Notes under the pieces: model-generated
Databases searched by the model: none
Seen by the model: the letters and a program-made list of their open reading frames with translations, nothing else
What the model was told of the DNA's origin: nothing
Part shown: positions 14,718 through 23,309 of the stretch, piece by piece
Layout of the letters: each line of letters begins with the position of its first letter
Numbering within the stretch: position 1 is the stretch's first letter
Made by a program: the position numbers and the translations under genes
Source of the DNA: Candidatus Aciduliprofundum sp.
Lineage (GTDB): Archaea > Thermoplasmatota > Thermoplasmata > Thermoplasmatales > Aciduliprofundaceae
Direction: 5' to 3'
Assembly (NCBI GenBank): GCA_015520565.1
Contig: WAPW01000087.1
Coordinates: 1-36,698, forward strand
Length of the DNA: 36,698 bases

Positions 14718-16055
14718 TTATTTTCTACGAATTTGTAGTTTTTCAATTCCCATCTTGGCTGACTCTATTCCATGGAAGTACCAAGCTAAAGATGCTGCTG
14801 TGCCAATTATCCAAAATATTATTACTATGATGAATAGTATTGTGGCAGTGGTACTTAACCCTATATATACTATAAGGGCTCCACTAATACCTTGTAAGCT
14901 TATTAGAAGACCTATAACGCTGGACCTTACTGGTGTTGGAAAGAGCTCACTTTGTAAAACATTTAAGCATCCCCACCCCCATTCACTAAAGATCATGTTT
15001 ATAAATAAAAATGAATAAAATAACCATATGGAACTTAAGGAGTTTGATAATAGAAGAATTACAGATGTAATAGAGCCGCCTATAAAGCTAAATATTGTAG
15101 AGAATTTTCTAGTTTTATCTATCAATGGTACTAAGAGAAACGCACCTAAAAATGACCCCATATTAGCGTAGAAAATGACATAACCGAGTGCATGTATTCC
15201 AAAGGCGAATCCCGGAGAGTAAGGTATATAAAAAGCTATGATATCATAAGTTATGTATATGCTTATAGTTATGAGAGAAAGAATAATAAATCTAAATAAA
15301 TATTTATGAAGAACATCTGATATTTTTAAACCTCTCTCTTCTGATAGTTCAAAATACATTTCTTTCTTATAATTTGTTATCTTCCTTACAATATTTTCAG
15401 CTTTTCTAGTTTTATTTTTAATTACAAGCCATCTTGGAGATTCAGGTAGAGTTATTCTCGCTAAACCAGTTATAGCGATAGCTCCTATTGCAGTAAGGAT
15501 TAAATATAGAATCTTTGTCTCCAAAAGAACAGGAAAATTAAAATAAAGTATACTTAATATAGCTATAGTTGCTCCTCCAAGATTCCAAAAGTTGGTTATA
15601 AGCAGCAAAGCTTTTCCCCTATGTTTAATAGGGGTCAGTTCTGTTATTAGAGATGAAGATACACCTAACTCCCCACCTATAATAAAAGTTATTACACTTG
15701 TAAGTATCCCGACAGCTATTATATTTCTATAAAAGGGTATTATGAGTATTATGCTGCTTGCCTCTAAAGCTGTTGAAATAGCAAATAATTTTAATCTCCC
15801 ATAAAGATCAGCCAAATATCCTACGGTCACAGCCCCTATAGATTGTGCAATGAGATTCAAAGCAAAAATCAAAGGAACATAAACCGGAGATATTGCGATA
15901 GAAAGCAGTATTGGAATAACGGCAAACATCAAACCGTCAAGAAAATAATTAGTTGAAAGTATAGAAAATATTTTCCAGTGATGCTTCCTCCATTTTGAGT
16001 TATCAAGGATATCTGTAAAATTGAGTTTATTAGCTGATGAAGTCAAGAGCTCCAT
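14718..16055 (-). CDS. MFS transporter, sugar-porter-like
   Basis: This 445-residue protein has about twelve transmembrane helices. The family loop motifs are present: GYLADLYGRLKL (motif A, loop 2-3), a central cytoplasmic loop with LPESPRWLVIKNKTRKAENIV, and FPTPVRSSVIGL in the second half. The PESPRWL motif places it near the sugar porter/organic solute branch. The substrate is unknown. It converges on btuD and has its own promoter: AAATTAATATAG lies about 30 bases before the start on the minus strand. A link to corrinoid or lower-ligand transport is possible from position but not supported by any motif. Confidence 0.85.
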   Translation of the reverse strand: MELLTSSANKLNFTDILDNSKWRKHHWKIFSILSTNYFLDGLMFAVIPILLSIAISPVYVPLIFALNLIAQSIGAVTVGYLADLYGRLKLFAISTALEASSIILIIPFYRNIIAVGILTSVITFIIGGELGVSSSLITELTPIKHRGKALLLITNFWNLGGATIAILSILYFNFPVLLETKILYLILTAIGAIAITGLARITLPESPRWLVIKNKTRKAENIVRKITNYKKEMYFELSEERGLKISDVLHKYLFRFIILSLITISIYITYDIIAFYIPYSPGFAFGIHALGYVIFYANMGSFLGAFLLVPLIDKTRKFSTIFSFIGGSITSVILLLSNSLSSIWLFYSFLFINMIFSEWGWGCLNVLQSELFPTPVRSSVIGLLISLQGISGALIVYIGLSTTATILFIIVIIFWIIGTAASLAWYFHGIESAKMGIEKLQIRRK

Positions 16056-16190
16056 AAATGGTGATTAAATTTTACTATATTAATTTTAAGTAAACTTTAA
16101 CTCAGCATGGATACTATGAAAAGTATCTAAATAGAAAGAATAAAAAATAAAAATGTTTTTTCGTATTGTAGGCAGACTCAAGTTGAAAAA
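16056..16190. other. A+T-rich spacer with the MFS gene promoter
   Basis: There is no coding region. On the minus strand TTAAAATTAATATAG near 16075-16090 is the probable promoter of the MFS gene. ATACT-ATGAAA-AGTAT near 16109-16124 is a small inverted repeat. The rest is low-complexity A/T sequence up to the GC-rich segment that begins at 16191. Confidence 0.4.
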
Positions 16191-16300
16191 TGGGGGGCAA
16201 TTGCCCACTATAAAGCTTTCGGTTGCCCCCACTCCTTAGGTTAGGGGCACTGATAGGTTTGTTGACTAAACTAACGGGGGCATTTTGTACCCAGGAGGTG
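16191..16300 (+). ncRNA. Candidate structured RNA or leader: GC-rich segment with competing stems
   Basis: In an A+T-rich surround this 110-base segment is G/C-rich and self-complementary. TGGGGGGCAA (16191-16200) can pair with TTGCCCCCA (16223-16231). It can instead fold locally as GGGCAATTGCCC (16195-16206). TGCCCC (16224-16229) can also pair with GGGGCA (16244-16249), and a further GGGGGC lies at 16276-16281. The segment ends in a perfect AGGAGGTG ribosome binding site (16293-16300) before an ATG at 16306. In a thermophile such local G+C enrichment often marks a structured RNA. It could be a cis-acting leader or an independent RNA. No known family was recognised. Confidence 0.4.
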
Positions 16301-16305
16301 ATTTT

Positions 16306-16404
16306 ATGAAAAAGAGTAGGGTATATAAGTTGGAGATTTTATGGAGCACAGGAGAAGATAGATGCAGAATTTAGGAAATATCTGAAACTGCATACAAATG
16401 ATGT
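16306..16404 (+). pseudogene. Short ORF with perfect ribosome binding site, ending in a RelE-like tail relic
   Basis: From ATG 16306, five bases after AGGAGGTG, a 22-codon frame (MKKSRVYKLEILWSTGEDRC...) runs to a TAG at 16372-16374. In the same frame the sequence then continues EISETAYK and a TGA. That end resembles the last residues of the toxin at 20593-20856 (EKRSETTYK and stop), and the DNA is similar too. I read it as a relic of a toxin gene whose 3' end still precedes the HD gene, or as a leader peptide fused to that relic. No function is claimed. Confidence 0.4.
16375..16402 (+). repeat. Copy 1 of a duplicated toxin-tail segment
   Basis: This stretch (GAAATATCTGAAACTGCATA and on to AAATGAT) closely matches 20828-20856, the end of the RelE-like toxin gene. 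Both copies are followed within about 20 bases by the TACTTCGTGA promoter box. It suggests the toxin tail plus promoter was duplicated as a unit. Confidence 0.55.
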
Positions 16405-16420
16405 TTTAGCTATTTTTAAA

Positions 16421-16442
16421 TACTTCGTGAAAACTATTAAAT
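16421..16442 (+). promoter_or_regulatory. TACTTCGTGA box and TATA box before the HD hydrolase gene
   Basis: TACTTCGTGA occupies 16421-16430 and the TATA-like TATTAAAT begins at 16435, 14 bases after the box start. ATG 16465 lies 30 bases after the TATA start, as expected for a leaderless mRNA. The same arrangement recurs at 17331, 20865 and, on the minus strand, 23264. An alternative TATA (TATTTTTAAATA at 16411) would serve an ATG at 16441. Confidence 0.6.
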
Positions 16443-16464
16443 GGTGCCAGAGAGTTTTATTTGT

Positions 16465-17265
16465 ATGGAAAACACAATCTGTAAAGATAGGAAGCCATTT
16501 ATCTACGATGAAACTTTTGAAGGTTGGCTCCATGGGGGACATCGTTTTCTTCTTAAAAACGGGGCTATGATGCCAGATAAGGAATTCAGGATATATGCGG
16601 GGATAGGTCCAGACCCAAGAGAAATGGGGCAAGATTTAGAAATGAGAAAATATTCGGGCCTAGTTTATGTAGAACCCTGCGTGTTGGAGATAGAGATAGA
16701 ATCATGGTTGAAAGCGTGTGATTTTTGGGACCCCTATGTTGAAAAGGCCTTGAGGATGGCAAGGGAGCTGCACGGAGAGCAGAAAAGGGATGATGGAGCT
16801 CCATACTTAGAGCAGCACATATATCCCGTAACCCTGACGATTCTAAAAACTATAAAGTTGAGACACATTCACAGATCGCCAGTAATTACCCCGCAGGATA
16901 TGATAATAACAGCCTTGCTACACGATGCTTTGGAAGACACTGATGTGAAGGAAATTAAAATCATCGATGAATTTGGAGAAAATGTATATGAAATGATTAA
17001 GGTTCTTACGAAGAAAAGGCCATGGGAGAAGGACTACAGCATGGAAGACTACATGAACAGGCTCAACTCCTCAGATTTTAGAATAAGGATGATCAAGCTA
17101 GCGGATAGGATGAACAACCTGTTTTGTCTTCAGTACACTGCCGAGGAAAAGAGAAAATGGTACATAGATGATACAATCAAATATTATTTGCCATTGGCTA
17201 AAAACACATCCAGATACTTTTACATATGGATGAAGAGAGTTCTCAAATCCATGAATGCTCTATGA
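16465..17265 (+). CDS. Stand-alone SpoT/MESH1-like HD hydrolase (candidate small alarmone hydrolase)
   Basis: This is a 266-residue protein with the RelA/SpoT-type HD hydrolase core in its C-terminal two thirds. The core reads RELHGEQKRDDGAPYLEQH (His 103 and 118), LLHDALEDTD (HD 153-154, ED 157-158), FGENVYEMIKVLTK and RMIKLADRMNNL (Asp 214). Metal ligands and the ED pair of (p)ppGpp hydrolases appear intact. There is no synthetase, TGS or ACT domain. The first ~90 residues (PFIYDETFEGWLHGG ... YVEPCVLEIEIESWL) match nothing I recognise. ATG 16465 is chosen by TATA spacing; ATG 16441 would add eight residues. It is followed by the CARF-wHTH pair under the same promoter box. The likely chemistry is removal of a 3'-pyrophosphate or phosphate from a nucleotide. 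The substrate in an archaeon is uncertain. Confidence 0.8.
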   Translation: MENTICKDRKPFIYDETFEGWLHGGHRFLLKNGAMMPDKEFRIYAGIGPDPREMGQDLEMRKYSGLVYVEPCVLEIEIESWLKACDFWDPYVEKALRMARELHGEQKRDDGAPYLEQHIYPVTLTILKTIKLRHIHRSPVITPQDMIITALLHDALEDTDVKEIKIIDEFGENVYEMIKVLTKKRPWEKDYSMEDYMNRLNSSDFRIRMIKLADRMNNLFCLQYTAEEKRKWYIDDTIKYYLPLAKNTSRYFYIWMKRVLKSMNAL

Positions 17266-17330
17266 ACATAGAAAATTTGATTTCAATGCGCATGTTAAAA
17301 TTAGCAATTTGAGATCGATGAGCTTTGAAA

Positions 17331-17353
17331 CACTTCGTAGAAAGTAATATATT
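17331..17353 (+). promoter_or_regulatory. CACTTCGTAG box and TATA box before the CARF-wHTH operon
   Basis: CACTTCGTAG at 17331-17340 is an 8/10 match to TACTTCGTGA and is followed by TAATATAT starting at 17345, 14 bases from the box start. ATG 17388 lies about 43 bases after the TATA start and has GAGGAGATA as a ribosome binding site. This is the most diverged of the four copies, and it sits upstream of the candidate regulator genes themselves. Confidence 0.5.
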
Positions 17354-17387
17354 CTTTAAGATTCTTAATCGCCATGAGGAGATAAAA

Positions 17388-18023
17388 ATGAAACTGCTAT
17401 CCACAATAGGCTGGACATCGAAAGTAGTTATAGAAGCAGCCAAGAAACTCAAGCCGGATGAGAATGTGGTGTTTTACGGGTATGTGGATGATGAAGAGAA
17501 AGAGAAGGTTGAAAAAGCATTAAATGAGGTGAAGAAAGAGCTTTCAAATGTCAAGGCGGTGCAAGTGGACCCGATGAACTTCTACGATTGCATAACAAAG
17601 GTGAATGAATACATAGACAACACATCCGTGGCAAACATAACAGGGGGAACTAAGATAATGTCATTCTCTCTGGCTCTCAAGGCTGCCCTGATGGACATCC
17701 CAATTATATACCTAGTCACAGAGAACGGAAAGACGATGATAAAGAGAGTGCCCATAAGGTTATCCACGAGCCAAAGAAACTTTTTTAAAATGAATGAGAA
17801 CGATTCCACGGCAGTACAGATTCTGCAAGCTCTCATACACAGCCAAGGTGGGAGAATGGACATGAAAACTCTCAAGAACAAGCTTAACAAGGGCTATTCC
17901 ACGATATCGGATGCGAAGAATAGGTTAATACTTGCAAATCTCATAAGGGAGGAGAAGAACGGGAGAACGAAAATGCTCATTGCCAACAGCGCTGCATATC
18001 TCTTCGGAGGTAATGCACTATGA
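17388..18023 (+). CDS. CARF-wHTH regulator (Csa3-like)
   Basis: This 211-residue protein has an N-terminal Rossmann-like CARF domain: MKLLSTIGWTSKVVIEAAKK opens it, and ANITGGTKIMSFSLALKAAL (residues 82-101) carries the TGGTK ligand-binding motif. A C-terminal winged helix-turn-helix (about 139-205) contains NKGYSTISDAKNRLILANLI. This is the layout of Csa3-type transcription factors, which bind cyclic oligoadenylates and control cas or defence genes. ATG 17388 is chosen for its GAGGAGATA site; a longer TTG-started frame from 17325 runs through the promoter. It overlaps the next CARF gene by four bases. No cas gene is in the window, so it may control the island itself. The ligand is inferred from family only. 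Confidence 0.85.
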   Translation: MKLLSTIGWTSKVVIEAAKKLKPDENVVFYGYVDDEEKEKVEKALNEVKKELSNVKAVQVDPMNFYDCITKVNEYIDNTSVANITGGTKIMSFSLALKAALMDIPIIYLVTENGKTMIKRVPIRLSTSQRNFFKMNENDSTAVQILQALIHSQGGRMDMKTLKNKLNKGYSTISDAKNRLILANLIREEKNGRTKMLIANSAAYLFGGNAL

Positions 18024-18757
18024 AGCTTTTCGCTTCAACGCTCACTATTTACACCTACAAGAGCGATGAGGAGATAAGGAAGAAGTTGAACAACGAGGAG
18101 GTGGAAAAATTCTTGGAGGGGATGGAGTACGCGGGAGAGTTTGAGAAAGCCCTGATATTTTCCGATTATTCCAACGGAGAGTTTGAGAGAACGATTAAAG
18201 AGTTGAGCTATGAGGAGCAGGAACTATTTGCAAAGCTTGTGGAAAAAATTGAGAACTTCAAGTTAATAAAGGTGAATTTGACAAATTACGATGAGTCATA
18301 CAGGATAATGTACAGGGCCATGGATGACCACATTTCCTCGCATATTGAGAATGAGGATTTGGACATAAAGCTCAATGTGAGTTGTGGCCACAAGTTGGGC
18401 TCTCTTGCTTTATACTTGGCAACCATGAATGTCGTGCACAAGAAAGAGTACTACAGCCACCTGAGCATAAGGAGAGGAACAAAGCTCTCTGTGGATGCTT
18501 ATCACGCTGAGAAGGGTATAATAGAGAAATTGCCCACCATGAACTTTGAGAGCCAAGAAAATAAGGAATGGGAAGAAATGCTCAAAACATTGAAAACTCC
18601 AAAGACATTGGAAGAGTTCAAGAAAGAGATAAGGGAGAACGCAGACAGGGCAATTGCTTACTTCAAGAACCACAAATACATAGAGATGAAAGATGGAAAG
18701 ATACAATTGACAGAAAGGGGAAAAGTGTTGGTGGAATTCTTGGAGAGAATCTCTTAG
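18020..18757 (+). CDS. Second CARF-like wHTH regulator with degenerate ligand motif
   Basis: This 245-residue protein parallels the preceding one: an N-terminal Rossmann-like half beginning MKLFASTLTIYTY, then LDIKLNVSCGHKLGSLALYLA (residues 114-134). SCGHK there stands where TGGTK is found in the first protein. A linker rich in Glu/Lys follows, then a C-terminal wHTH (about 181-245, KYIEMKDGKIQLTERGKVLVEFL). The altered motif suggests weakened or changed nucleotide binding. A heterodimer with the first protein is one possibility, since their genes are coupled by an ATGA overlap. The 3' end overlaps tail-to-tail with the RNase J-like gene by four bases, so readthrough could produce antisense RNA to either. 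Confidence 0.7.
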   Translation: MKLFASTLTIYTYKSDEEIRKKLNNEEVEKFLEGMEYAGEFEKALIFSDYSNGEFERTIKELSYEEQELFAKLVEKIENFKLIKVNLTNYDESYRIMYRAMDDHISSHIENEDLDIKLNVSCGHKLGSLALYLATMNVVHKKEYYSHLSIRRGTKLSVDAYHAEKGIIEKLPTMNFESQENKEWEEMLKTLKTPKTLEEFKKEIRENADRAIAYFKNHKYIEMKDGKIQLTERGKVLVEFLERIS

Positions 18758-20316
18758 AATTCAATATGATCTCCATTTTTCAAGATTTTCGTTTTTTCTT
18801 CAAAATTCTGTGCGAACCAGTCTGGGTTCGTGGTGTGCACGGGTATGATTATATCAGGATCAATGGTGTCTATCATATTGCGTATCTCTTCCTCGCTTGC
18901 ATGTCCAGATGCGTGGTATCCTTCATCAAACTTGGGCTTATCACCTTCCATGTGGAATCCCGCACTTTTCATCCCGTACCTGCTTAGCCAGTTGCTTAGC
19001 GTTACAAAGTCCAGCTCCATGTCCTCCGTGAAAGCCTCTGTGGAAGAGTAAAGGTACATCCCTCCTTGCGTTTTAATGTCCATCATGTTTGGCATGTCGT
19101 AGAGGGAGAAAGCGAGTATGTAATTTCCGGGAGATTCTCTTATTTCTAAAGGATTTACATATTGATCTTCCCAAAGATCATGGTATGCCAGCATTTTCTG
19201 CCACCATCCAACTCTATCTTGGGGCTTGTCGTACACCATTATATCCTCTGTGTCTATCTCAGTGCCTGCCGTCAATAGTCCCGTTATTGCGTAAGCATCC
19301 TTATCCGTGACCACTAATTTTCTTCCATTCTCCTTGGCGATCTCGGCAAACATGTTCAACCTCTCAAAGTTCCTTGCCGAGAAATCTGCAATTATCAAGC
19401 CTCTTTCATCTCCCACTGCTGCAGAGCAGTTCTCAAAGACATCCTGCTCCGTGGTGTAGTGGTGCTCTCTGTCATCCTCTAGCCTCGTTCCTTCAATTAT
19501 GAGAACATCGCTTCCCTTCGCTTTATTGATGAATTTCAAAGTTTCTTCTCCTCTCTCCCCGTGCATTCTAAAGTCTCCAGTATAGGCGATTCTCCGCGAA
19601 TCTTCAGATTCAACTATGTATCCAACTGCTCCGTATATGGAATGGTCCACCGGATGCGCATTGACTTTGAAGGGTAAAGAGTCCAGATTGTCAAGTTCAA
19701 GCATTTCTGCAAGGTAATCCATTCTCTCTTCCGTGCTCTGCAGGCACAAAAAGTCAATTTCCTCATGGCTTAGCTCTTCAGTTGGAATCAACCTTCTGAG
19801 CATCAGGTACTTTCTAATCTTTTCCTCGTTGTTCTTTATGCTGTTTCCCTTGCTTTTCAAGATAGGCATTGAGCTTGAGTCTTCTTCTCTCTTAGCTCCG
19901 TATATTACAGAGGTTGCATTATCTGATTTTCCTGCATCCTGATACGCCTTTATTATTGCTAAGCTCTCAGGCGAGGCAACGAGAGGTATGTCAAATCTCA
20001 GATATCCAATCATCCCGTAATGGTCCATGTGCGCATGGGTGAGAAGTACAGCATCCACAGGTATTCTCTCCCAGTTAGAAGTATTCAAATCTGAGGGAGT
20101 CAAATCCTCTCTATACACATCTATTGGAGGTAGCAAATTCATCTCTATGGGGTCATTCAATCCACGAATTGCTCGCATGGATATGAATTCCTTGAAATAC
20201 TTGCCCATAGTGTCAAAATTTAACCCAAAATCCAAGAAAATTCCATGGTTTCCATCTCTAAGATAAATCTTAGATCCACCAATGCTCTCAGCTCCATCAT
20301 AGATTTTCAGTTGCAT
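18754..20316 (-). CDS. Metallo-beta-lactamase/beta-CASP ribonuclease, RNase J-like
   Basis: The 520-residue protein has the MBL metal motifs HAHMDH (94-99), H225 in HPVDHSIYG and TGDFRMHG (246-248). The beta-CASP motifs are IIADFSARN (motif A, ~308-316), YHASGHASEEE (motif B, ~467-477) and PVHT (motif C, ~492-495). A helical insert of about 80 residues (130-215) separates motifs 2 and 3 and is longer than I expect for RNase J. The catalytic set is complete, so a zinc-dependent exo/endoribonuclease is likely. It has its own leaderless promoter (GTTTAAAATAATG about 30 bases upstream), divergent from the toxin-antitoxin promoter, and no TACTTCGTGA box. The island location suggests a role different from housekeeping aRNase J, but this is unproven. 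Confidence 0.85.
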   Translation of the reverse strand: MQLKIYDGAESIGGSKIYLRDGNHGIFLDFGLNFDTMGKYFKEFISMRAIRGLNDPIEMNLLPPIDVYREDLTPSDLNTSNWERIPVDAVLLTHAHMDHYGMIGYLRFDIPLVASPESLAIIKAYQDAGKSDNATSVIYGAKREEDSSSMPILKSKGNSIKNNEEKIRKYLMLRRLIPTEELSHEEIDFLCLQSTEERMDYLAEMLELDNLDSLPFKVNAHPVDHSIYGAVGYIVESEDSRRIAYTGDFRMHGERGEETLKFINKAKGSDVLIIEGTRLEDDREHHYTTEQDVFENCSAAVGDERGLIIADFSARNFERLNMFAEIAKENGRKLVVTDKDAYAITGLLTAGTEIDTEDIMVYDKPQDRVGWWQKMLAYHDLWEDQYVNPLEIRESPGNYILAFSLYDMPNMMDIKTQGGMYLYSSTEAFTEDMELDFVTLSNWLSRYGMKSAGFHMEGDKPKFDEGYHASGHASEEEIRNMIDTIDPDIIIPVHTTNPDWFAQNFEEKTKILKNGDHIEF

Positions 20317-20401: not shown

Positions 20402-20596
20402 ATGGAAGTAGAAGCCATATACGAGAATGGCGTTTTAAAACTTGTCTCTCCTGTAAAGATAAAGGATGATAAAATAGTGGTAAGAATAGTAAATAGGGAT
20501 GAGGTACTAACTGAGGAAGATATGAGGGATATCATAGAGGCGGTCAATGAAAGAGAAAAAGGGCACTACTACAAGATGGAGGAAGTTTTTGAATGA
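20402..20596 (+). CDS. DUF104 family antitoxin (AF2212-like)
   Basis: The 64-residue protein opens with MEVEAIYENGVLKLVSPVKIK, matching the short beta-strand DUF104 antitoxin family, then a helical acidic tail (EEDMRDIIEAVNEREKGHYYKMEEVFE) of the kind that wraps the toxin. The stop overlaps the toxin ATG (ATGA), the classic coupling of type II modules. It probably represses its own promoter together with the toxin, as is usual for the class. Confidence 0.8.
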   Translation: MEVEAIYENGVLKLVSPVKIKDDKIVVRIVNRDEVLTEEDMRDIIEAVNEREKGHYYKMEEVFE

Positions 20597-20856
20597 GCTA
20601 CGAGGTTCTTTTCTCTCCTAAAAGCAGAAGACAGATTAAAGGATTGAAAGATGAAAAATTGAAAGAGAAAATAAAAGAGGCAGTAATAGAGATAGGAAAA
20701 GATCCTTGGCATAAAGGAACCATAAAGGTTGAAGGCTATGAGAACATAAGGAGAAAAAGAGTGGGTAGGTACAGGATTTTATATATGATAGACAAGCAAA
20801 GAAAAGAAGTGTTGGTTGTGAAAATTGAGAAAAGATCTGAAACTACATATAAATGA
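20593..20856 (+). CDS. RelE/ParE-type toxin
   Basis: The 87-residue protein has the RelE-superfamily pattern: YEVLFSPKSRRQIKGLK opens it, a Lys/Glu-rich helix pair follows, then GYENIRRKRVGRYRILYMIDKQRKEVLVVKIEKRSETTYK, with the basic strand and the RYRILY motif typical of ribosome-dependent mRNA interferases. The Arg/Lys residues of the active face are present, so it is probably active. It is partnered by the DUF104 antitoxin just upstream. Its last ~28 bases recur at 16375-16402. A toxin of the ParE branch cannot be excluded. Confidence 0.8.
   Translation: MSYEVLFSPKSRRQIKGLKDEKLKEKIKEAVIEIGKDPWHKGTIKVEGYENIRRKRVGRYRILYMIDKQRKEVLVVKIEKRSETTYK
20828..20856 (+). repeat. Copy 2 of the toxin-tail segment (end of the intact toxin gene)
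   Basis: This is the 3' end of the RelE-like gene, close in sequence to 16375-16402 and ending in the same TGA. In both places the TACTTCGTGA box follows: nine bases after the end here and 18 bases after it at the other copy. Confidence 0.55.
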
Positions 20857-20864
20857 TTTTCCAA

Positions 20865-20887
20865 TACTTCGTGAAAATCTATTTATT
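20865..20887 (+). promoter_or_regulatory. TACTTCGTGA box and TATA box before the acidic gene
   Basis: TACTTCGTGA at 20865-20874 is exact, with TATTTATT starting at 20880, 15 bases from the box start. The downstream gene starts at ATG 20918 with GGTGAT (20909-20914). So the gene has its own promoter despite following the toxin gene closely. Confidence 0.6.
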
Positions 20888-20917
20888 CTCCGCAGCCAAG
20901 GGTTAAGCGGTGATGCT

Positions 20918-21268
20918 ATGAGTGTGGAAGAATGTGTGGAAAAGGTAGAAGTGCAGGATAACAACTACACTGCAGTTGTGGATGAGGAGATTTACCGGCA
21001 GGTTGGACATTTCAAGAAAGTAATAGATGCCATGGTAGGTGATGAGTTAGATAGCATGGACGATTACATCAATTTCATCCTGAAAATAGGAATGCAAAAG
21101 ATGCTGATAGATGTGCTGCCAGATGATGAGGCACTCCAAATGACTATGGTGGCAATGTTTGAAGACAATCCCGAGTACCTATGCGAGTTCGTGTCCAAAG
21201 TTCTAAGAGATGGAAATAACGAAAAGGTAGAGGGAAAGAAGTCCGAGTGGATGAACGCGTATGGATGA
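20918..21268 (+). CDS. Acidic hypothetical protein, possibly interrupted
   Basis: This 116-residue protein is rich in Asp and Glu (VDEEIYRQVGHFKKVIDAMV, GDELDSMDDYINFILKIG, PDDEALQMTMVAMFEDNPEY). The order strand-helix-helix near residues 17-55 recalls ribbon-helix-helix proteins, but I cannot assign a family. ATG 20918 is chosen over a TTG at 20825 that lies inside the toxin gene and before the promoter. The stop is a TGA at 21266-21268, and the same frame stays open afterwards to 21415. The gene is therefore either a short protein or the first part of a 160-residue gene broken by a nonsense mutation. It shares a promoter box with the HD and CARF genes. Confidence 0.6.
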   Translation: MSVEECVEKVEVQDNNYTAVVDEEIYRQVGHFKKVIDAMVGDELDSMDDYINFILKIGMQKMLIDVLPDDEALQMTMVAMFEDNPEYLCEFVSKVLRDGNNEKVEGKKSEWMNAYG

Positions 21269-21523: not shown

Positions 21524-21829
21524 ATGTATGTTCACAGAGATTTGGAAGATAAATTCAAGAAGGTTGCGGGCAGTTATTCGGTAGTTGCGCTCGTAGGTCC
21601 AAGGCAATCTGGAAAAACGACCATGCTAAAAGAGCTAATGAAAGAGTACAATTCCTCTTATGTTTTGTTTGACGATCCAGATGCGAGAAGGTTATTTGAT
21701 GAGGATATCAAGAAATTCATAGTGCAGTACATAGAAGGTTATGATTTGGCTATTCTGGATGAGTTCCAGTACTGTAAAGATCCCGGCTCAAAGTTAGTAG
21801 AAGAAGTACCATATGGTGTGGAAACGTAG
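21524..21829 (+). pseudogene. Truncated archaeal AAA-type ATPase (DUF4143-linked family), ending in a CRISPR repeat
   Basis: The N-terminal 90 residues are a good P-loop ATPase: MYVHRDLEDKF, GPRQSGKTTMLKEL (Walker A), FDDPDARRLF, and LAILDEFQYCKDPGSKL (Walker B with the E-Q sensor-like pair). Family members are usually around 400 residues and continue after GSKL with a Lys-Tyr-Leu-rich strand and a DUF4143 region. Here the frame passes directly into CRISPR repeat 1, adding VEEVPYGVET and a stop. The rest of the gene is not found downstream in the window. It is therefore a truncated gene whose 3' part was replaced by or lost to the CRISPR-like array. The family name is from recall. Confidence 0.75.
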
Positions 21830-22030
21830 CGGAGCAGGGCTTGAATATCATCCGCCATCTCGTAGAAGAAGTACCATATGGTGTGGAAACTTTATATTTC
21901 CGTCAATCATCATCAAAAACTTTCCATGTAGGTAGAAGAAGTACCATATGGTGTGGAAACATTTGTGTGCTATTAACTAACTTTCCATTGTAATCTACGG
22001 GTAGAAGAAGTACCATGTGGGTTTTGGAAA
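21797..22030 (+). CRISPR. CRISPR mini-array: three identical repeats, one degenerate, three spacers
   Basis: A 29-base repeat (GTAGAAGAAGTACC ... GTGTGGAAAC, with ATATG in the middle) occurs at 21797-21825, 21862-21890 and 21932-21960 without a mismatch. A diverged copy lies at 22001-22030. Spacers are 36, 41 and 40 bases. The repeat end GGAAAC and the degenerate last copy both place the leader side on the left. There, however, lies ATPase coding sequence instead of an A+T-rich leader, so the array appears leaderless and probably no longer grows. No cas genes are in the window. Transcription could come from the ATPase promoter. Spacer origins are unknown. Confidence 0.85.
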
Positions 22031-22103
22031 TATCTTGGCTATGGGGCCAATTGAATTTATAAAAATGATAGTGGAGAAATACGAACAAAATTATTAGTTG
22101 GGT

Positions 22104-23219
22104 TTACATTGTACCAACAACTTCGCTTGCAGCTCTTATCAGCTCATCCTTGGTCCAAGCTCTCCACTCAACTGGCACGACCACAGGATTTTCATCTCCC
22201 TCGTAGTATACGGCAAGAATATCCTCCTTTAAATCATTCTCTTTGGACTCAGGTATCATGAACCTAGCAAGCTCGGCCTTTGCAGCTATAATCATCTTGT
22301 CCTCAAACTCAAACACCACGCCAACCTCTGCGTGCAACCTCTGTGCCTCGTTAGCAATCGTGGTAAGCTCTTTCTTGTTTCTTATCTTGAAAGGCACATC
22401 GTAAATGTAGCTCAGCTTCTCCTCGGGAAACATTACTTCAAAGATATCCCTATCGATCCTAAGCATAGAGTGCGCTACTTTAGCACTTAGAGACATTATG
22501 GTGTATGCAGGGAGAGTTAATACCAAAGCTACTTCGTTCTTATTCAAATTCTCTTTCACGAACCTGAACATAGCATCTTTGCTCTCTGTCAATCCTTTAC
22601 AATTGTGGTCAAAGAGGTGAATAAAACCGGCGTTGTTGAACAAGAATCCTGCATAGTTAATGCCATAAGAGTAAATGAAATAACCTTCTTTGGCGCATGC
22701 AAACTCAGAGCTACCCTTCCATGCCAGAACAATATCGCAGTCACCCTTATCAATGCAGTTCTCGGCTATCATTTTTATCTCATCCTCGGAGAGATTTATA
22801 TCATCCACCCTTTTGAACATAGTAAAATCTTCCTTTTTCACTATGAAAACACCATTGTAAGGGAATCCCATATTGCTCATCATAAAATAGTGTCCAGTTC
22901 CAACAATAATAGCGTAATCTTTCCAGAAATAAGATCTATGTTCCATATCACTTTCATACAGCATCATTTCATTATCATTCTTTGCTGGAAGTGCCTTCGT
23001 CTCCTTGGATTCTGGCTCATCATTGATCCATCTCCACACCTTTTTCTCTCCTTTCCATAGAAGTCCTCCAAACTTAAAAATAAACCAGAAGAACACAAAT
23101 CCCAATACAAATATGTAAGTTGCAAAGCATATCGTGCCGCTTTCAGATGCTCCTGATATGCCTACAAATATTGCAAGGAGTAACGCAATTATCAATGCGG
23201 CTTTTGCAGCTGTGCTCAT
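22104..23219 (-). CDS. Unknown membrane-anchored protein of the accessory island
   Basis: This 371-residue protein has two N-terminal transmembrane helices (about 5-24 and 31-50), a basic linker (LLWKGEKKVWRWI) and a large soluble part of about 310 residues with no motif I recognise. Noticeable words are DYAIIVGTGHYFMM, GNxxx-free stretches rich in Phe/Tyr, GFIHLFDHNCKGL and EVGVVFEFEDKMIIAAKAELARFM. ATG 23219 is chosen because a TATA-like TTTTTATAC begins 30 bases upstream, predicting a leaderless mRNA. An ATG at 23258 would place the promoter inside the gene. The promoter carries the same TACTTCGTGA box as the HD and CARF units, so it probably belongs to their regulon. A membrane effector or sensor is a guess. 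Confidence 0.65.
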   Translation of the reverse strand: MSTAAKAALIIALLLAIFVGISGASESGTICFATYIFVLGFVFFWFIFKFGGLLWKGEKKVWRWINDEPESKETKALPAKNDNEMMLYESDMEHRSYFWKDYAIIVGTGHYFMMSNMGFPYNGVFIVKKEDFTMFKRVDDINLSEDEIKMIAENCIDKGDCDIVLAWKGSSEFACAKEGYFIYSYGINYAGFLFNNAGFIHLFDHNCKGLTESKDAMFRFVKENLNKNEVALVLTLPAYTIMSLSAKVAHSMLRIDRDIFEVMFPEEKLSYIYDVPFKIRNKKELTTIANEAQRLHAEVGVVFEFEDKMIIAAKAELARFMIPESKENDLKEDILAVYYEGDENPVVVPVEWRAWTKDELIRAASEVVGTM

Positions 23220-23241
23220 AGAGAATAGTTTGTGATTAGGG

Positions 23242-23264
23242 TATAAAAACATACTCACGAAGTA
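23242..23264 (-). promoter_or_regulatory. TACTTCGTGA box and TATA box before the membrane protein gene
   Basis: On the minus strand TACTTCGTGA occupies 23264-23255 and TTTTTATA starts at 23249, 15 bases from the box start. ATG 23219 follows 30 bases after the TATA start. Spacing is the same as at the HD hydrolase promoter, on the opposite strand and 7 kb away, so this is not part of a simple local duplication. Confidence 0.6.
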
Positions 23265-23309
23265 TGCAATATCTTCATATCTTTCAAAAAAGAAAGATTA
23301 AGAAAATTA

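Follow-up and report, generated by a model that had tools for sequence, protein, structure and literature searches.

Directly upstream of two genes for CARF regulators, an archaeal genome carries a gene for a hydrolase of the SpoT/MESH1 type, which raises the question of whether enzyme and regulators form a functional unit or have come to lie side by side by chance. The stretch of DNA analysed here, hereafter the window, is 36,698 nt long and is a single contig of the 1.51-Mb genome of a DHVE2/Aciduliprofundum-group archaeon. On its forward strand, the HD hydrolase gene (positions 16465–17265, 266 aa; an alternative ATG at 16441 would give 274 aa) is followed on the same strand by CARF1 (17388–18023) and CARF2 (18020–18757), whose start overlaps the CARF1 stop (ATGA); the first-pass annotation had described this order. 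CARF1 is a Csa3-like CARF-wHTH regulator that resembles the Csa3 type in its matches to Csa3_N, Card1 CARF, cas_HTH/Csa3 and PADLOC CARF3 (1.1e-130), with a score below the NCBIfam Csa3 cut-off, but differs from that type in being paired with a second CARF protein. This partner, CARF2, is a divergent CARF-wHTH protein with a weaker match (HFX_2341_N, 3.8e-5, under the family cut-off). An RNase J-like beta-CASP/metallo-beta-lactamase gene on the reverse strand (18754–20316) is convergent with the CARF pair in six of the loci that were compared. An Rfam search over 15800–19000 gave nothing above gathering scores.

By its domain and motifs, the upstream gene is predicted to encode a real stand-alone RSH hydrolase of the SpoT/MESH1 type, in agreement with the initial reading of the sequence. 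Pfam HD_4 (PF13328) covers residues 95–246 (7.5e-14) and is the sole Pfam family matched in the 266 residues, with no synthetase domain; the HD part of NCBIfam spoT_relA matches as well (1.2e-22). The HD and ED motifs (H153-D154 and E157-D158), which had been called intact, are indeed present together with the later Asp (D214), with the caveat that the first His motif is rearranged. In a PDB profile search, the closest solved proteins by sequence are long Rel enzymes, followed by small alarmone hydrolases (SAHs) and MESH1, the best match being Thermus thermophilus Rel (7ohg, 8.2e-16); unlike the long Rel/SpoT enzymes, the window protein has no synthetase, TGS or ACT domains. Structure prediction, which the first-pass annotation had proposed as a check on the HD site, is consistent with this assignment: most of the HD core scores above 80 pLDDT in the AlphaFold2 model, and Foldseek matches this core best to Drosophila Mesh1, human MESH1, the Pseudomonas aeruginosa SAH and Thermus Rel. 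A tree of HD domains left the protein without a well-supported position: its grouping with other archaeal sequences received 0.36, too low for assignment to a named SAH subgroup.

The first 88 residues (16465–16728) form an N-terminal domain that belongs to no known family, as had been suspected for a region of about 90 residues, and that appears to be lineage-specific. Searches of residues 1–88 against Pfam (E up to 5), PHROGs and PDB profiles returned no match, nor did a search of 390 genomes of the phylum, in which matches outside the family start at residue 86 or later. Viral contigs scanned for a relative of the domain yielded none; phage and plasmid matches considered as relatives were rejected as HD domains of RSH proteins, and two candidates that seemed to cover the N-terminal part (H1 and H5) proved to be long RelA/SpoT-type frames. 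Within the family, the domain is conserved in all four homologues, with C6, D15, F18, E19, W21, L22, H23, G24, H26, K31, G33, Y44, G46, G48, D57, P71, C72 and E75 invariant. Two AlphaFold2 runs modelled this region with confidence below 50. One might speculate that C6, H23, H26 and C72 could together form a metal site.

How widely is the HD gene distributed, and is it accompanied by a synthetase? In this archaeal family the gene is accessory and occurs sporadically. It is present in 4 of 18 family genomes (the window genome, G002, G012 and G015), the homologues sharing 46–54% identity with the window protein, whereas 43 other genomes of the order lack it; the phylum sample of 390 genomes contains ten more distant HD matches, none spanning the N-terminal part. 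Horizontal spread may explain this distribution. The RelA/SpoT synthetase domain (PF04607) was found in none of 21 genomes, comprising the window genome and relatives, in a search to which a non-homologous alarmone synthetase would be invisible and for which 11 of 14 controls were positive. The genome thus offers no RelA/SpoT synthetase with which the hydrolase could form a stringent-response pair. Such a situation has precedent: a 2011 survey, whose SAHs include Mesh1, Mesh1-L, pbcSpo, divSpo and others (Atkinson et al. 2011, PMC3153485), had already described small alarmone hydrolases in archaea that have no synthetase. The window protein shares with them a stand-alone RSH-type HD domain, the lack of a synthetase domain and a sporadic occurrence that extends to a few archaea lacking synthetase (PMC3153485), but differs in its conserved N-terminal domain of about 88 residues.

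The first-pass annotation had also proposed a functional link between the HD gene and the CARF regulators, and conservation of the neighbourhood in relatives had been named beforehand as the point on which that link would fall. Of the four HD genes, only that of the window adjoins CARF genes. In G002 the HD gene lies 640 kb from the CARF pair and overlaps a 253-aa gene at that gene's end; other neighbours surround it in G012 and G015, on contigs of only about 4 kb. CARF1 is present in 16 of the 18 family genomes and CARF2 in 15, side by side in 14, and the nearest relative by CARF identity (G003, 95%) has the CARF pair and no HD gene. DNA homology with G003, at 92%, has its left end at 17324, a break showing that two blocks of different history, one with the HD gene and one with the ancestral CARF genes, were joined between HD and CARF1. 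Given the 122-bp gap between these genes and CARF1's own ancestral promoter, a single HD–CARF1 operon is not established. Because the neighbourhood is not conserved in relatives, the functional link is unsupported; the adjacency is specific to the window genome and most likely arose by rearrangement, as an accidental pairing.

For the genes that adjoin HD in the other three genomes (L005:713–1933, 406 aa; L007:9017–9778, 253 aa; L006:2005–2322, 105 aa), Pfam gives no match, and they show no mutual relationship at E<1e-6. The CARF pair, for its part, shows linkage to genes for MoxR-type AAA and VWA proteins in G003 (L040:5011–15684), G004 (L047:5719–10249) and G017 (L048:4974–9485), in the latter two as a single operon of MoxR, VWA, a gene of about 190 aa, CARF1 and CARF2, and in G003 additionally to SbcD/Rad50-like genes. 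No mention of this CARF–MoxR–vWA link was found in PMC7159879 or PMC4012209.

Comparison with G003 also points to the setting in which the rearrangement took place: the HD gene sits on the margin of a type III-A CRISPR/defence island that has been reshuffled and is in decay. In G003 about 10 kb separate the CARF pair from a type III-A CRISPR-Cas locus. The pair is flanked there on one side by the MoxR and VWA genes and on the other by SbcD/Rad50-like genes, an RNase J-like gene, a ParDE-type pair and an AAA_14 ATPase gene, followed by Csm1/Cas10, Csm2–5, a TIGR02221 protein, Csx14, Cas6, Cas1 and two arrays. The window keeps an AF2212-like antitoxin, a ParE-type toxin and a 117-aa protein of no known family (20402–21268, forward strand), all conserved in G003. 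The AAA_14 gene that follows (21524–21829, forward strand) is truncated at a CRISPR repeat, encoding 101 aa versus 390 aa in G003. It is cut at 21796, from where the far CRISPR array continues directly (21797–23269, 83% to G003), beginning with three repeats GTTTCCACACCATATGGTACTTCTTCTAC on the reverse strand (21797–21960). The loss of the whole cas operon is accounted for by one deletion of roughly 13 kb whose junction lies inside the array, and the truncated ATPase and orphan repeats favour deletion here over insertion in G003. The Cas10 palm domain was detected in G003 and G004 and not in the window genome, and the CARF pair is retained in many genomes without detectable Cas10.

On the other side of the HD gene, the forward-strand stretch 16139–16355, truncated here, is 96% identical to a non-syntenic place in G003, where it lies 5′ of a pair of genes for 88 and 448 aa. 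This sequence of about 220 bp recurs at several places in the genus (also L077:1989–2206 and L080:2072–3936), where it precedes a gene pair of 79–88 and 446–448 aa of no known family; two copies lie near tRNA genes. The sequence and its gene pair are possibly an integrated element.

We therefore consider it probable that the gene encodes a stand-alone RSH hydrolase of the SAH type with a lineage-specific N-terminus and a clean-up role, and that it came to adjoin the CARF genes by rearrangement at a decayed type III-A island. Metal-dependent removal of phosphate or pyrophosphate is established for Rel, SAHs and MESH1, and from these relatives we infer the substrate, metal and physiological role of the window protein. 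By this analogy, the HD site would most likely hold a divalent metal, perhaps Mn2+ as in Rel and MESH1, and the likely substrate class would be 3′- or 2′-phosphorylated nucleotides: the protein would take the 3′-pyrophosphate off (p)ppGpp-like nucleotides, or a phosphate off a related nucleotide such as NADPH. The enzyme would probably be a clean-up, detoxifying or protective one rather than half of a stringent response, a role likelier than signalling because no recognised RelA/SpoT synthetase occurs in the genome or its relatives.

Could the enzyme instead resemble MESH1 in function, as an NADPH phosphatase that works on NADP(H) pools and has nothing to do with alarmones? The NADPH-bound MESH1 structure 5vxa is among the Foldseek matches, the missing synthetase domain would fit, and the G002 homologue lies beside an Nnr-like gene (NAD(P)HX repair) on the opposite strand. 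Yet by sequence MESH1 is a more distant relative than the HD domains of long Rel enzymes, and we regard a role confined to NADP(H) as rather unlikely.

A second alternative keeps a link to the CARF genes through transcription. By binding the 10-base core ACTTCGTnnAAA, CARF1 and CARF2 would govern three targets, namely HD, the CARF operon itself and the 117-aa gene at about 20915, and the hydrolase would be deployed in response to CARF ligand. The shared promoter box on which the first-pass annotation relied amounts to this core. The core occurs at six sites in the genome, three of them within 4.5 kb at the promoters of HD (16422), CARF1 (17332) and the 117-aa gene (20866, ACTTCGT); since it was selected after the first two sites had been seen, only the third is independent. 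Its rarity genome-wide and its presence at these three promoters make some local co-regulation possible. The CARF1 box (ACTTCGTAGAAA, 17332–17343, forward strand) is kept in G003, while G002 and G006 carry versions with one or two changes; CTTCGKAGAAARTAATWTAT is common to CARF1 promoters in four genomes. The possibility that the box serves the genus as a general promoter element was considered and rejected, CTTCGnnnAA occurring in 7 of 102 upstream regions. The HD operon of G002 bears ACTTCGG at −42, as does the G002 CARF1 promoter.

The remainder of the promoter evidence speaks against such a regulon. A matrix of the longer CARF1 box scores 30–31 bits on CARF1 promoters but only 11.3 on that of HD, a value that the best of the unrelated upstream regions also reach. 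The HD box (ACTTCGTGAAAA, 16422–16433) lies inside a 72-bp stretch of the HD promoter region (16368–16438, forward strand) paralogous, at 72% identity, to 20823–20883, which comprises the tail of the ParE-like toxin gene and the promoter of the 117-aa gene; the ParE-like tail and the promoter after it are thus duplicated, in decayed form, upstream of HD. The CARF1 box stands on the conserved side of the 17324 junction and so predates the adjacency. The four HD promoters are weakly enriched in the core (P 0.008–0.03, uncorrected for the patterns tried), and the genome is without detected Cas10. A box common to HD and CARF1 is suggestive at the level of the core, the full CARF1 box being matched poorly at HD, and a regulon built on it seems unlikely.

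Third, the HD protein could be catalytically dead or repurposed, for example as a binding or sensor protein. The first metal His of RSH-type HD domains is usually carried by the motif PYIxHP; in the window protein this is replaced by PYLEQHIYP, with a three-residue insertion (PYLEQHVYP in G012), a departure from other SAHs that suggests that activity may differ from theirs. The rearranged form is shared by all four homologues, in which H118, shifted in position, is invariant and a candidate metal ligand. In the G015 homologue, moreover, the ED motif reads EY and the later metal Asp is Glu. However, HD, ED and D214 are intact in the window protein, and long invariant stretches surround the site although the proteins have diverged to about 46–52% identity, a pattern that argues for selection for a working site. 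A dead or repurposed protein is thus, in our estimate, clearly improbable.

Two further readings tie the hydrolase to CARF signalling itself. In the first, CARF regulators left behind after type III CRISPR loss took over the HD gene by way of the ACTTCGT box, so that a hydrolase with a new sensor domain, perhaps metal-binding through C6, H23, H26 and C72, would be switched on by a cyclic-nucleotide-like signal; we judge this very improbable. In the second, the hydrolase would break down the cyclic oligonucleotide that the CARF proteins bind, as the first-pass annotation had suggested, and would thereby serve as an off-switch. The HD superfamily as a whole acts on a wide range of phosphoesters, and hydrolase and CARF genes are adjacent in one genome, but sequence and fold group the protein with (p)ppGpp-type hydrolases, the pairing is not conserved, and Cas10, the known maker of CARF ligands, was not found in the genome, leaving this reading extremely unlikely.

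Taken by itself, the window would suggest a new CARF-linked module, and sister genomes were needed to read it otherwise: an apparent defence pairing can come from rearrangement and CRISPR loss. What the locus adds is an RSH-type hydrolase family with an uncharacterised N-terminus in archaea without a recognised (p)ppGpp synthetase. The locus is of interest for this new domain and for the problem of orphan hydrolases rather than for a new CARF system, and such hydrolases without a synthetase keep the question of their substrates alive.
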